From: Hexactinellida sp. DTS-2022
Lineage: Eukaryota > Porifera > Hexactinellida
NCBI GenBank assembly: GCA_028753945.1
Contig: JAPNXP010000003.1
Span: 3,782,001-3,846,000, forward strand
Reading direction: 5' to 3'
DNA: 64,000 nt
The notes under the pieces were generated by a model. That model was not told the origin of the DNA. It searched no databases and was given only the letters and a program-made list of their open reading frames with translations. Shown piece by piece: positions 39,829-60,179 of the stretch (position 1 is the first letter of the stretch; the number at the start of each line of letters is the position of its first letter). The position numbers were made by a program, and so were the translations under genes.

Positions 39829-41865
39829 CTAATAGTAAAAAAGTGGATTAATTTCAAAATCGTCCACAAATGGTAGCCATGATGAGTTAGGTTCTTTGCA
39901 ACAAAAAAAGGAATTAGCATACTCTGCTCCAGCCATTAAAGTAGCATCAAATTTTGAACAGTAAGTAACTTTTGAGATGTACTCCATTGTTTCCTTACGC
40001 TGAAGGTGACAGTGTATTAGATCATTGATCAAGTTATCATTCAGATTTCCACCAACAAAAAACAATGCACTGCATACTCTATTTGGGTCAGATTTCACAA
40101 TAATAAGTTCTATCATAGAAAACAGTTGGTCTGCCTTCAAAGTCAGTTCAAACGCCTCACTCACAACAGAATTCCCGCTTATAACTAAGGACACCCATCC
40201 CGACTCGTATCCGAGGTTAACAACAATACCATTAGGCTCTCCATTACCAACACATACAGCAACACTCTGTGGGATACAACGTATACCATAATGTGCATAC
40301 ATCATTCTCAACACACGAATGATCGGCCCTACATCCTCCTCCGAACAGAATAAGGGGCTAACGAGATATAACACTGAAGTATGATAGGGATAGGTAGATA
40401 CTTTGCAGTCTTGGTACAATCCAAAGAGTATTTCTGGTAAGAAACCTGCTTCAGAGATCTTCCCTCGCTCTACTACGCGTGTGCACATGTCAAAATAATT
40501 GGCTAAGGCATTTTCTCCACAAAACCAACGATCGTGATTATATTTCCTCATATGCAGATCATATATACCTGGCACACGAGCCACAACAGAGCGAATTTCA
40601 CTTGTAACGAGTTGTGAACTGGTGTTTAGAATGTTAGCACACCTGATATGGTAACTTCCCAGGTCGATAACAACACATTTTATATGATCTTCATTTATCG
40701 CATGTCTATCTCTGAAATTGCCGTACCAATCCATGATGAGTGGATTATATGGAGATTCACTCATACAGAGGTCGACTTTGTGCCCATAGGGCCATCTCCT
40801 CTTATAGAGCTCAAACCACAGTCCTCCGTCCATAGCCAGGTCATACCAAAGCTTACAAACCTGCATACACCGGGTAACGTCCTTAGCAGGCAAGTAGCTG
40901 AATATTCGAATGTATAGTTCGAATGGGATTGCTAACCTACTCAACTCACCATGGTAGTCTGCAGACACAGTGCGTTGTGCTTCCATCTGCAAGCGAATAG
41001 CCTGTAAATAGGTGTCTGTAAACCCCTTCTGGTCTCCGTTCTGTTCAAACTGCCAGGACTTACGGTAGAGAGTGAGGGCTCTGTTGTAGGACTCGGACTC
41101 TTCGTATTTCGTCGGATTTGGTATCATCTGTGTATCCACACGGCGGAACATAACTTCTGTCCTCAGAAGATACTTCACACCCGAGAGAACTGGTGTCCCC
41201 TCATGGAAGCAGTCATGATTGAACACCAGCCCCATGCCTACACTTGGTGTCACTTGATGGTACACATGCGTGGTGTCTTCCTCGTCTATGAATTTCGTTT
41301 CGCCACCCTTGTACTCAGTGTTCAGATATATCAGAACAGTGTACACTGAAGACTCGTCCTCTCGAGGTACCCATGGACCATCAAAATGAGGTGTGAAGTG
41401 ACCCCCACTCGTGTATTTCATTATTTTAATGCACTCATTGAGTCTAAACGGTCTCCAAGTGCCTTCGTTGCCGAATCCGATCGGACGAACACGTATCACA
41501 TCATTTCGTGTCAACAGCGGTTCTATTCTATTGAATATGGCATCAGCCATTTCGTGTGACAATGTTAGAACTCTGTCATTGATTCTGTAATAGGATGGAA
41601 ACTGATCTGCTAGACATGAAAACCCTACCTTTTCACATTCTTTTATGTAAAAATGACATTCCTCAGGTGTCAACAGGTTGTTAAGAGTGAAACAGTGACT
41701 GTTTGGAATATTTGTTAATTCCTCTCTTTTGATATTATTTGGTTTATCATTGAGTGATTGATAGAAAGGAAGTAGTATAAAATTGTTTTCAGCTGTCTCC
41801 AGCATGGGTTTGGTTACTATCTTCTCTATGGGAGACCCTTTTATTTGGATTTCTACCATTGCCAT
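39829..41865 (-). CDS. 2OG-Fe(II) prolyl-hydroxylase-like / F-box / actin-related fusion
   Basis: One uninterrupted 678-codon ORF. Residues about 55-242 form a prolyl-4-hydroxylase-type oxygenase domain: H160-F-D162 and distal H221 bind iron, and K231, ten residues on, fits the 2-oxoglutarate-binding lysine. Residues 257-297 (NRALTLYRKSWQFEQNG) resemble the helical segment before the F-box in FBXO9. Residues about 307-358 form an F-box (IPFELYIRIFSYLPAKDV, CKLWYDLA), the site that binds SKP1 in SCF ubiquitin ligases. From 396 to the end lies an actin-related fold: CVVIDLGSYHIRCA, GIVVNLGYESGWVSLV, LFFVGGN and DATLMAGAEYA match phosphate-loop and C-terminal actin motifs, with several insertions missing, so ATP binding is uncertain. 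F-box-actin fusions are known in plants (ARP8). SKP1 is itself a known prolyl-hydroxylase substrate in Dictyostelium. The triple fusion is new to me. The ATG at 41865 starts MAMVEIQIKG; a second ATG is two codons on. Confidence 0.9.
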   Translation of the reverse strand: MAMVEIQIKGSPIEKIVTKPMLETAENNFILLPFYQSLNDKPNNIKREELTNIPNSHCFTLNNLLTPEECHFYIKECEKVGFSCLADQFPSYYRINDRVLTLSHEMADAIFNRIEPLLTRNDVIRVRPIGFGNEGTWRPFRLNECIKIMKYTSGGHFTPHFDGPWVPREDESSVYTVLIYLNTEYKGGETKFIDEEDTTHVYHQVTPSVGMGLVFNHDCFHEGTPVLSGVKYLLRTEVMFRRVDTQMIPNPTKYEESESYNRALTLYRKSWQFEQNGDQKGFTDTYLQAIRLQMEAQRTVSADYHGELSRLAIPFELYIRIFSYLPAKDVTRCMQVCKLWYDLAMDGGLWFELYKRRWPYGHKVDLCMSESPYNPLIMDWYGNFRDRHAINEDHIKCVVIDLGSYHIRCANILNTSSQLVTSEIRSVVARVPGIYDLHMRKYNHDRWFCGENALANYFDMCTRVVERGKISEAGFLPEILFGLYQDCKVSTYPYHTSVLYLVSPLFCSEEDVGPIIRVLRMMYAHYGIRCIPQSVAVCVGNGEPNGIVVNLGYESGWVSLVISGNSVVSEAFELTLKADQLFSMIELIIVKSDPNRVCSALFFVGGNLNDNLINDLIHCHLQRKETMEYISKVTYCSKFDATLMAGAEYANSFFCCKEPNSSWLPFVDDFEINPLFYY

Positions 41866-43232
41866 TTCTAATACGGAGTATAATAATTAATGAGGAATTG
41901 TCAATACTTGTTCGTATTATATAGAAAAGACTATGGAATTTTAAACTTTGTCCTTAATTAACTCTTTTATTGTTCCTTTTAGCTGTCTCCTCTGACTTTC
42001 CAATTTTATTATTTTGGATTACTTCTATTTCCTATTAGACTATTGTTATGACTTATGAGCATGAGACCAGGGCTTAGTATGAAAACTAACCTCTCTGTCA
42101 AGCCCCATCTCATAGAGATGTTATGTGTGTGGTTCCATCCCATCACAGGGACTCATCAAGCGGGTAACCCTCGACCACCATGCGTTCTACCACTACCACA
42201 CGCCGGTTCCAGCCCTGTGGCTCCAACCGCATCGTAATGCCCATGTGTCCTTCTACAAGGCAGCAGGTGTAATCTTTAATTAAAGATTAAACACTATAAT
42301 TAATTATAGTGTCGTCATAAGATAGGCGGGAGGACAAACAAGGAATGATGGAGGTGCTATGCTAGTGTTGTCTAATAATATTTTGCTGATAAGATTACTA
42401 GGCGAATTTTTTTCTGCGTTCATATTGCCATATACTGGAGAGTATTATTTATCATTATAAAATCAAACAATATTTCTATCTTGAACTTTGTAATATTCAC
42501 TCAGTGGAAAATCATTTCCCTGTCATAAAATAACAAACAAACAAACTGACAAACAATTGAGAAACAACAATCCAGTAATTGATTTAAGTTGACTCAATAT
42601 AATTAAACCACAAAATCGATGTGAACGCGATTAAACCGATGCGAACGCGTTTACACTGCAACAGGCAACTATAAAGTCCAGGGCAACCCAAAATTTGGCA
42701 TACCAAATAAAAAATTTGAAATGAAACCCTGGTACCGCACTGTCTTCGAGCACCTTATACCTACGATCAGAAGATCCGGATGGATTTTTACTGGATTATG
42801 ACTAATATTCTGGACAAAATGCATTATGGACTGGATTTGGATTAAATCCATCCAGACCTTCTGCCTACGATGATTTGTGACTCAATCTAAACAACGGACA
42901 TGATAACTTTCATGTCTATTTAAACATTTTGTTTGTTAATTTACTATAAGATTGTTATTTTATTGACTAATTAATTAAAAGTAGTTATTTATATTTGACT
43001 CAGTACTGTTTGCTTAACTGCCATTTAAACGTACTTATTCCGGCACAGGTGGGGCACACCAACATTCATTTTAAACCTGTGACATGAGGTGAACCACGCT
43101 TAAATTGAAGTGGGGGCTGTCTACAACCTCCCGCCGCCCCTGGACTGATCAGTAAAAACAATAAATCTCACTGTCGAGGCTTTCTAAAGTTATGTTACGG
43201 GAAGTAAGAAGAGAAAAATTATGAATACCGTA
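41866..43232. other. intergenic, one short possible exon
   Basis: Mostly AT-rich, with a GC-richer patch at 42095-42260. On the plus strand 42149-42259 lies between ATCACAG and CAG|GTGTAA and can encode LIKRVTLDHHAFYHYHTPV and LWLQPHRNAHVSFYKAA. The reverse strand is also open, so coding is uncertain. No other gene was seen. Confidence 0.3.
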
Positions 43233-57276: not shown

Positions 57277-60179
57277 ATGGCCGCAAGTGCTCATTTACCC
57301 GACCAGGCTGATGCAAGTAAGGACCCTGCCTGTCTCCCAATGGACACCAGGGAGTCCGTGGAGCCAGTAGACACACTGGATTGCAAGATTCCTTTCACAG
57401 ATGTGTGTACCATGTTTGAGAGGATCAGCTCCAGTGATGGGAAGGAGCGGAAAAGAAAGATATTCGGTCTGTTATTGGACACATGGCGTAGTCAGCATAG
57501 GAAATTGTATTCTGACAGCGATTCGGGCAAGAAGGATAGCTTCTATCCTCTGATGAGACTCTGCCTGCCCCACCTAGACAGGAAGCGAGCTGCATACGGT
57601 ATGAAGGAGACTGTGCTGGCCAGGTACTACATAGAAGTATTGGGGATAGCAAGGACTGGAGCAGACGCGTTGAAGCTGCTCAACTACAGGGCGCCAACCA
57701 GCGGAAAGACACAGGCGGGAGATTTCGCAGCTGTGGCTTATTTTGTATTGAAGAATAGATGTCCACAAGAGGGCTCTCTCATGGTATCCGATGTGAACTG
57801 TCTCCTGAACAAGATTTCGGTTTCTAACGCGGCTCACGACAGAGCGACAGTCAAACAGACTCTTCAGCAGATCCTGCGTAGTACTACTGCTGTGGAGCAA
57901 AAGTGGCTAATTCGTATCATAATGAAAGAGCTGAAGCTCGGAATCAATGAAAACTCAATTTTGTCTCTTTTCCACCTCGATGCTGTTGATCTCTTCAGCG
58001 TATGTGCCGACTTAGAGAAGGTCTGTGTAGACCTAATCGATCCCTCGTTCAGACTCAACGAAGCCGCCATTCAGCTCTTCGCTCCCTTCAGACCAATGCT
58101 AGGACAGAGAGCTTCTATTCCACAGGCAGTGAAGCTAGCCGATGGACAGGTGTTCTATGTGGAAACTAAGTTTGACGGAGACAGAATGCAGATGCACAAA
58201 GAAGGGAACACGTATCGCTACTTCTCTCGCAGTTCTAAGGACTATACTTCTTCATTCGGCCCCAGTTCTTCTGAGGGATCTTTCACTCCCCAGATACACT
58301 CTGCTTTTAAAACAGACATCTCCTCTTGCATTTTAGATGGCGAGATGGTAGGATATGACCTCACAGAAGATACTTTTATTCCCAAAGGCGATAACATTGA
58401 TGTGAAAGCTATCAGTACACAGTTAGCTGGGAAATACGAAGGAATGCAGCAGTGTTTTGTGGTATTCGATATTCTTATGGTAAATGGAAGGAACTTAGCT
58501 AACCTGACTCTGAAGGATAGAGCTCTTGAGCTGGACCAGGTGTTCACACCTTTGAAGGGACTGCTACACTTGGTTGATAGACTTGAGCTGAGCTCCAGGG
58601 AGGAGCTTGTGACGTCACTCAATGATGCAATAGATAGAAGAGAAGAAGGAATACTTGTAAAGCTTCCTAACTCTACCTACCAGCCTGACAAGAGAAAGGG
58701 AAGCGGCTGGCTCAAACTTAAGCCGGAGTACATGGACTCTCTCAGTGATCAGCTCGATCTCCTGATACTCGGGGGCTACTACGGCAGCGGGAAAAGAGGC
58801 GGCATTGTGTCTCACTTCCTGCTGGGAATAGCTGAAACTCCCTCTATGGGGCACTACCCCTCTAGGTTCTATTCTTTCTGTAAGGTAAGACCTCTAGATT
58901 TTTAAATATTCACTGCGCTTTTCATAATTTAATCTGATCCTAGGTAGGGACTGGATACACTCTCAGCGAGCTACGCAGTCTGTCAGACGAGTTAGGACCC
59001 TACTGGCAGGCCTTCACTCCCTCAACAGTTCCCAACACAATAGTACTAACGTCTGGTAATAAGGAGAAGCCGGACTTGCTTATAGCGCCTGAATTCTCCC
59101 GGATAGTGCAGGTAAGAGCAGCAGAGGTCACGGTCTCTGAGAAGTACAGCTGCGAGTGCACGCTCAGGTTCCCGAGGCTGGAGATGTTCAGGAAGGACAA
59201 GGAGTGGCACCAGTGCATGACAATGGATGAGCTGGAGAATATAAAGGAGAGCTCAGCTGGACGTCTCTCGCACGCCTGTGCAGACGGTTTTGAGGATATA
59301 GCTGTGAAAAAGCGCAAATTGACCAGTGGCAGGAGAATAGCCATCACTCGAGGCGTGGCTTCTCATTTCAGAGGTGCTAACATTGACGATGTAGAGGTGA
59401 CCAGTCAGACTTTCAATGGAAAAGAGTTTTATGTTGTGAACGGATCTACAGAGTTCTCGAAGAACGATATAGAGCTGAAGATAGCCTCTTATGGTGGCTC
59501 TTTCCGACAGAACCCTACCCCAAACACTTTCTGCGTGCTAGTGCACGAACAAAGCTTTAGAGTTAAAAACTTAATAAGGACGGGGAAGTACAATGTTGTG
59601 AAGCTAGATTGGTTCGTTAAGTGCGTTGCAGAGGATAAGTTCACTCCTTTAATGCCGCACTATATGCTCTTCGCAGAGGCTTCAACTAAGCAGCAGTTCC
59701 AACATCTGTACGACGAATATGGAGATAGTTATACTGAGCCGTGCGATCCAAGAGAGTTCATGGATCTGTGCAGAAGAATAGGAACGAACCACAAGTATGA
59801 GGAAATGTCTCACACTGAGATTGCAGAGGTAAAGGATAAATATCTTGATGACGAAAGCGTATCTGGACTGTTCAGACACTACACATTCTATGTAGATAGG
59901 TATAGAAATTTGAATAATTTGGATTCTAACATTGCGATCAGTGCTTTGGAGCTAATCGAATGGAACATTAGATTCAATGGAGGAGCGGTCTGTACTGAAT
60001 TAATTGGAGGAGTTAGCCATGTTGTTGTTAATGAAAAAGACTTGGATAGATTAAGTGAGATTAAAACTATTGTAAAATCATTTGGCCGACTGCCCTACAT
60101 TGTTACAGATCAATGGGTTGAGGATTCTATAAAGATGTCTCATGTCAGACCTGAAAAGATTTATTCCCCTAAGAACTAG
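57277..60179 (+). CDS. LIG4: DNA ligase IV
   Basis: Exon 1 is 57277-58884 (536 codons) and exon 2 is 58944-60179. The 59-base intron has borders AAG|GTAAGA and TCCTAG|GTA and falls between codons. The protein has 947 residues, close to human LIG4 (911). An N-terminal DNA-binding domain covers about 35-265. The adenylation domain has the active-site motif K298-FDG, then SCILDGEMVGYD, EEGILVKL and WLKLKPEY. An OB-fold follows (TLRFPRLEMFRKDKEWHQCM). Two BRCT domains end the protein; the linker between them (YGDSYTEP, MSHTEIAEVKDKYL) is where LIG4 binds XRCC4. It seals double-strand breaks in non-homologous end joining in the nucleus. The start codon fits the family (MAAS). A basic KKRK stretch before BRCT1 may serve nuclear import. 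No disruption is seen. Confidence 0.97.

Follow-up and report, generated by a model that had tools for sequence, protein, structure and literature searches.

A single-exon gene of Hexactinellida sp. DTS-2022 encodes a 678-residue protein in which an Fe(II)/2-oxoglutarate oxygenase is followed by an F-box and then by an actin-like region. The protein may be an SCF substrate receptor or subunit with a built-in oxygenase that hydroxylates a captured target, or SKP1, a reading that we regard as possible, if somewhat short of probable. SKP1 binding, hydroxylation, the target and the dependence on oxygen are inferred. The chain occurs intact at a second place in the same genome, and its parts change at very different rates between the two copies.

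The gene and its reading frame

The frame lies on the reverse strand (Table 1); it begins with ATG, ends with TAG and is uninterrupted, and the nearest in-frame stop on its 5' side is 24 nucleotides before the ATG. From stop to stop, it is open for 685 codons, against a maximum of 205 codons when the window, the whole stretch of 64,000 nucleotides that was analysed, was shuffled 30 times by a Markov model. A preliminary description had proposed one unbroken frame and a three-part chain. The first claim is borne out by the 678-codon ORF, the shuffles and the second intact copy, and the second by the occurrence of the same order in one frame in that copy. Where the window copy has a TATA-like sequence, the other two copies of the gene have TATATAAA upstream, as judged by eye.

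Table 1. Positions of the gene and its parts in the window
Feature	Position	Strand	Basis
Single-exon gene, 678-residue oxygenase/F-box/actin-like protein	39829..41865	-	Frame; second intact genomic copy
2OG-Fe(II) oxygenase, residues 56-245 (H160, D162, H221, K231, R235)	41131..41700	-	Pfam; invariant residues; pN/pS 0.086
Linker, residues 246-310	40936..41130	-	Constrained between copies; F-box is the only Pfam family above cut-off in the scanned stretch
F-box, residues 311-360	40786..40935	-	Pfam; matches F-box chains of SCF structures
Actin-derived region (residues 393-587); runs collinear with residues ~2-205 of actin	40105..40689	-	Pfam; profile-profile comparison
C-terminal stretch (residues 588-678), resembling actin by eye only (FVGGN at 603)	39832..40104	-	
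TATA-like sequence 5' of ATG	41913..41924	-	By eye

The window also carries a DNA ligase IV gene at 57277-60179, which consists of two long open frames with a probable short intron between them, as well as a secretin-type receptor fragment and an EGF protein. TGF-beta domains have four matches in the genome, all above the cut-off, and together these genes fit the genome of an animal. A search of the genome for Wnt gave no match, and its controls were likewise silent.

The oxygenase domain

The oxygenase matches the Pfam family 2OG-FeII_Oxy_3 (PF13640) at residues 147-233 (E 1.7e-11; 45.4 bits against a cut-off of 27). It was aligned with 5 plasmid relatives, taken from 16 matching plasmid records, and H160, D162, H221, K231 and R235 are invariant in 6 of the 6 sequences. 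The HxD...H...K residues named at the outset (H160, D162, H221 and K231) are among them. The basic residue at H+10 is Lys in P4H and Arg in PHD2, and it is Lys in this oxygenase.

The domain had also been called prolyl-hydroxylase-like, a term that holds for the superfamily (PF13640 and the iron triad) only, and not for the PHD/PhyA subfamily, since a query with the catalytic domain of PHD2 finds no part of this gene. That query, run exon by exon without a positive control, found nothing in the animal's own genome at E <= 0.001, and no PHD was detected in this way. At E <= 1, its single match in the genome (0.034) lies elsewhere than this gene. Among solved structures, the prolyl 4-hydroxylase 2jig comes nearest in sequence, as a weak match (0.0023).

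Across 84,980 bacterial and archaeal species (one genome each), a pattern derived from the alignment was matched at 586 places; relatives are encoded at 558 of them, and the best 80 of these were retained. The nearest relatives found are stand-alone bacterial oxygenases, such as WP_224095777.1 of Nostoc sp. MS1 (E 2e-22), and the relatives examined are, where annotated, single-domain oxygenases or hypothetical proteins. The stand-alone enzymes have the same catalytic residues as the domain described here, but are single domains of about 195 residues, unlike the fused protein.

Within the genome, a six-frame search with 2OG-FeII_Oxy_3 found seven places: the three copies of the gene, an enzyme on contig C2, an Ofd1-like and a leprecan-like sequence, and one more. 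The enzyme on C2 (L094:1599-2294) stands alone, is 231 residues long and has 36% identity to the oxygenase domain; it may be related to the enzyme as it was before the fusion. Of the 80 bacterial loci, 79 (one has no motif-bearing frame) went into a tree of 83 rows together with the three copies and the C2 enzyme, but without a eukaryotic outgroup. The three copies group together (100/100), and their stem, 3.2 in length, joins between 75 bacterial rows (87/80) and a group of 4 bacterial rows and the C2 enzyme (89/78), with neither fork starred. A recent transfer of the oxygenase from bacteria finds no support in this tree of bacterial loci and the genome's own copies, which shows no close donor.

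The Pox_C4_C10 family (PF03336; cut-off 25) scored 23.5 with the whole protein, 25.5 with the oxygenase half and 25.6 with the intact paralogue. Its match covers only positions 63-158 of 322 and falls within the oxygenase, where PF13640 scores far higher, and we read it as common oxygenase ancestry instead of viral origin. The near-cut-off score may hint at an ancestry common to the poxvirus C4/C10 proteins and this oxygenase group. A search of viral_contigs with the protein itself, sensitive to close relatives only, gave no match, and two actin-based scans of the same collection confirmed 0 of 4 and 0 of 99 pattern matches. Of the 50,697 records in 'phages', 5 match, all over the oxygenase alone. 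A viral or phage origin of the fusion thus finds no support in these scans.

The F-box and SKP1

An F-box following the oxygenase had been proposed, and two Pfam families score above their cut-offs there: F-box-like at residues 313-355 (E 1.9e-14; 53.6 bits against 24.3) and F-box (E 6.5e-9; 35.8 bits against 20.5). The SCF structures whose F-box chains it matches include those with KDM2A and KDM2B chains.

The genome has one SKP1 gene (L127:1492-1998), the sole match to PF01466. Its product has Pro153 in NIKNDFTPEEEEQIRKEN and terminates in NIKNDFTPEEEEQIRKENAWCEE, Pro153 included. Going by the aligned motifs, we take Pro153 to be the counterpart of Pro143 in Dictyostelium and of Glu147 in humans. 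Its presence is weak evidence for hydroxylation of SKP1 by the fused enzyme, because the proline is old and widespread among other eukaryotic SKP1 proteins too. PhyA acts on Pro143 of Dictyostelium SKP1, and human SKP1 has Glu147; the proline is present in Dictyostelium and Toxoplasma, and the position is Glu in many complex animals (PMC7864055).

The actin-derived region

In each of the three copies, the Pfam family that best matches the C-terminal region is PF00022, always in the same register and with a score below the gathering cut-off of 27 (E 6.2e-4, 0.067 and 0.0073; 18.9, 12.2 and 15.4 bits). Over residues 393-587, the match has an E-value of 0.0043 on the whole protein and of 5.9e-4 to 6.2e-4 when the domain is scanned alone. 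The intact paralogue, scanned whole, gave no PF00022 at E <= 0.1. Profile-profile comparison with the actins of the same genome gave a score of 32.0 over 181 columns, at actin positions 6-188, which none of 320 column shuffles matched (highest 26.1). For the last ~90 residues alone, the actin score was reached by 17 of 150, 30 of 150 and 42 of 3000 shuffles. By eye, these residues might be the end of actin (VGGN, then AGAEYANSFF), an assignment that was rejected: MAFFT and HHalign pick another register, and shuffles reach the score. Actin homology is supported, at the level of sequence, for the first two thirds of the region and unsupported for the last ~90 residues.

Of the actin-like fold of the preliminary description, the sequence supports homology over the first two thirds, with a PF00022 score below cut-off and an unsupported C-terminal end. 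Among the three profiles that it named (2OG-FeII_Oxy, F-box and Actin), the oxygenase and the F-box score above cut-off and Actin below. The region comprises 293 residues, and "actin-derived region" is a more exact term than "actin fold" because it is about 80 residues shorter than actin.

BLASTP of the region against yeast actin found no match, and BLASTP against ARP8 matched an F-box segment (5e-6) and an actin segment (0.044). In phmmer comparisons with ARP8 and yeast actin, the matches listed comprise 6 shuffles each and lack the real domain, and the similarity of the actin parts to ARP8 does not exceed that of shuffles. Structure prediction from the single sequence was uninformative (pLDDT 34.0), and mixed full-length alignments did not place the actin fragments. 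The last structure model used the actin region and N-terminal actin fragments only, is circular for that N-terminal part, and has pLDDT below 50 at residues 205-293.

The genome contains 75 stretches that match PF00022 at E <= 0.001, with many single-exon actins and divergent actin-like genes. Eleven of the 75 exceed 490 bits across almost the full length of the profile, and one of these 11 has an in-frame TGA. A tandem family of long single-exon ORFs is found at C8:2173500-2183000 (L125), two of them whole (1007 and 701 amino acids) and two more incomplete in the stretch. Three of the ORFs retain only about the first 68 actin positions, joined to variable low-complexity middles, one of which matches Synaptobrevin. 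A C-terminal segment is common to the three whose end is visible.

Copies of the gene and selection between them

The genome assembly (112.4 Mb in 18 contigs) was searched with the whole protein, and five places were found: the gene itself, a copy on C1, two pieces of a third copy and the C2 oxygenase. The C1 copy is intact and 88% identical over residues 9-658, has the same order in one frame, and scores above the Pfam cut-offs for both the oxygenase (45.9 bits) and the F-box. The third copy, on C12 and about 450 kb away, is disrupted by two inserts, whose terminal inverted repeats measure at least 15 and at least 14 bases. These inserts, at L093:2435-2656 and L093:3327-3634, resemble small DNA transposons. 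The domain junctions are conserved between copies, and the last residues of the protein differ between the two intact ones. When the end of the C1 protein alone (374 residues, comprising the remainder of the F-box and the actin-like part) was used as a query, only these gene copies were matched in the genome.

An assembly or gene-model artefact that merged neighbouring genes is scarcely credible. The gene is known from DNA alone, and the window copy resembles its paralogues only from the start codon onward, whereas the C1 and third copies have upstream DNA in common. However, the second copy lies on another contig with the same order, one frame and conserved junctions, and because this intact copy and a broken third copy occur in the same genome, we conclude that the fusion is no artefact.

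Comparison of the two intact copies gives 7 nonsynonymous against 21 synonymous changes for residues 56-360, which span the oxygenase, linker and F-box (pN/pS 0.090); the F-box itself has 0 nonsynonymous and 3 synonymous changes. The actin-derived residues 386-660 have ~82 nonsynonymous and 38 synonymous changes (pN/pS 0.60), and the two parts differ in this proportion (Fisher p 6e-5). For residues 386-660, the ratio is less than 1 (Fisher p 0.008); for residues 386-477, it is 1.07, which is indistinguishable from 1. Because pS also differs between the parts (0.108 in 56-360 and 0.216 in 386-660; p 0.007), gene conversion may have affected the first part, an effect for which pN/pS largely corrects. 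A constrained oxygenase and F-box joined to a fast-changing actin-derived part are what one would expect if enzyme and adaptor were fixed and the receptor varied; the high pN/pS of the actin-derived part may also reflect relaxed constraint.

Relation to known proteins

KDM2A and KDM2B (FBXL11 and FBXL10) are animal JmjC histone demethylases with F-box, CXXC, PHD and LRR domains. Like the protein described here, they are animal proteins that have a 2OG oxygenase and an F-box; they differ in their JmjC type and are not known to have an actin part. The Pfam matches of the present protein, as listed to E 10, include no JmjC or cupin family. The similarity to PhyA and PHD comprises the superfamily and the HxD...H iron triad, with oxygen sensing as a proposed parallel, but the sequences are not close, as judged by the PHD2 query, and PhyA is not known to be fused to an F-box.

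The plant protein ARP8/SUSA2 (At5g56180) has an F-box and then an actin-related domain on one chain, as the preliminary description had pointed out. It associates with ASK1/SKP1, the SCF substrate has been suggested to bind its actin part, and it still works when predicted nucleotide-site residues are mutated (PMC7562919). In contrast to the present protein, in which the oxygenase precedes the F-box and the actin part is shortened, ARP8/SUSA2 has no oxygenase and a fuller actin domain. The pairing of F-box and actin has been called plant-exclusive (PMC7562919; PMC11096116).

In Dictyostelium, JcdI/Fbxo13 is an O2-limited F-box dioxygenase that co-immunoprecipitates with Skp1, and both JcdI and JcdH have a 2OG oxygenase and an F-box on one chain (PMC9485057). 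They differ in being of JmjC type with the F-box near the N terminus, and the available part of that report mentions no actin part. It states that F-box oxygenases of the JcdI type occur in Dictyostelium, other protists, plants and some fungi and are absent from metazoa.

The pairs of F-box with actin and of F-box with a JmjC oxygenase are already known, and what is new is the triple combination, which is a novelty built of known kinds because both pairs are precedented. In the open-licence literature, no oxygenase/F-box/actin fusion was found by titles and starts of abstracts among the matches listed, in agreement with the earlier remark that no description of it had been seen, and the matches listed also held no precedent for a P4H-type oxygenase and an F-box on one chain. 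A paper on F-box gene innovation (PMC12062965) makes no mention of actin, 2OG, hydroxylase, oxygenase or sponge.

Possible functions

In the proposed mechanism, the F-box would dock on SKP1, the fast-changing actin-derived region would recognise a target protein, and the oxygenase would hydroxylate either the bound target or SKP1 at its C-terminal proline. ARP8/SUSA2 and JcdI come nearest to it as working precedents. In this mechanism, tagging for destruction would depend on oxygen, iron and 2-oxoglutarate. An oxygen-dependent SCF subunit had been suggested before, and it stands as a possibility, with the second intact copy, the constraint and Pro153 of SKP1 in its favour. Against it, the oxygenase lies outside the PHD/PhyA subfamily by the PHD2 query, the actin region is degenerate, and the pairing of oxygenase and F-box is precedented.

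By analogy, a fused F-box need not imply a substrate receptor, because the F-box of JcdI is dispensable for its O2 effect. Perhaps the F-box is a control handle through which SKP1/SCF sets the abundance of an enzyme whose substrates are unrelated, as in the JcdI model, although we find this rather unlikely. Constraint on the oxygenase as strong as that on the F-box agrees with such a handle, as does the association of Skp1 binding with lower JcdI levels (PMC9485057), but the added actin-derived part and its fast change are left unexplained. We give still less weight to hydroxylation of SKP1 in cis, in which the F-box would present SKP1 and Pro153 would be hydroxylated as PhyA does from outside in Dictyostelium. 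The distance of the oxygenase from PHD2 and the wide occurrence of the proline count against it, so that we consider it distinctly unlikely. On its side, the sole SKP1 match in the genome bears the proline at a position that is Glu in many complex animals (PMC7864055).

Alternatively, the actin-derived part might be decaying junk on a functional oxygenase/F-box protein. The pN/pS values of the part, overall and in residues 386-477, would fit with decay, as would the sub-threshold PF00022 scores, the broken third copy and the dispensability of nucleotide-site residues even in ARP8 (PMC7562919). However, ~290 codons are open in two copies, and the ratio for residues 386-660 is below 1. Because long blocks of it, such as IPQSVAVCVGNGEPNGIVVNLGYESGWVSLV, are identical in all three copies, the part is not simply decaying, and we hold this explanation to be very improbable.

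Significance

An SCF receptor with a built-in oxygenase could take a stronger form: in an animal in which no PHD was detected, a single chain would serve as an oxygen-gated ubiquitin ligase, its actin-derived part capturing a protein, its oxygenase hydroxylating it and its F-box directing it to destruction, and the receptor parts of the copies would diversify. We consider this version unlikely; if it is true, one polypeptide does the work of PHD and VHL in other animals. Sponges and ctenophores are reported to be without PHD and HIF orthologues (PMC5800844). If this animal is among the lineages without PHD and HIF, the gene is a single testable candidate for an oxygen response there. Should the protein act in an SCF complex as a subunit, oxygen sensing and target selection for ubiquitylation would be united in one molecule, and the protein may mark its targets for destruction only when oxygen is present.
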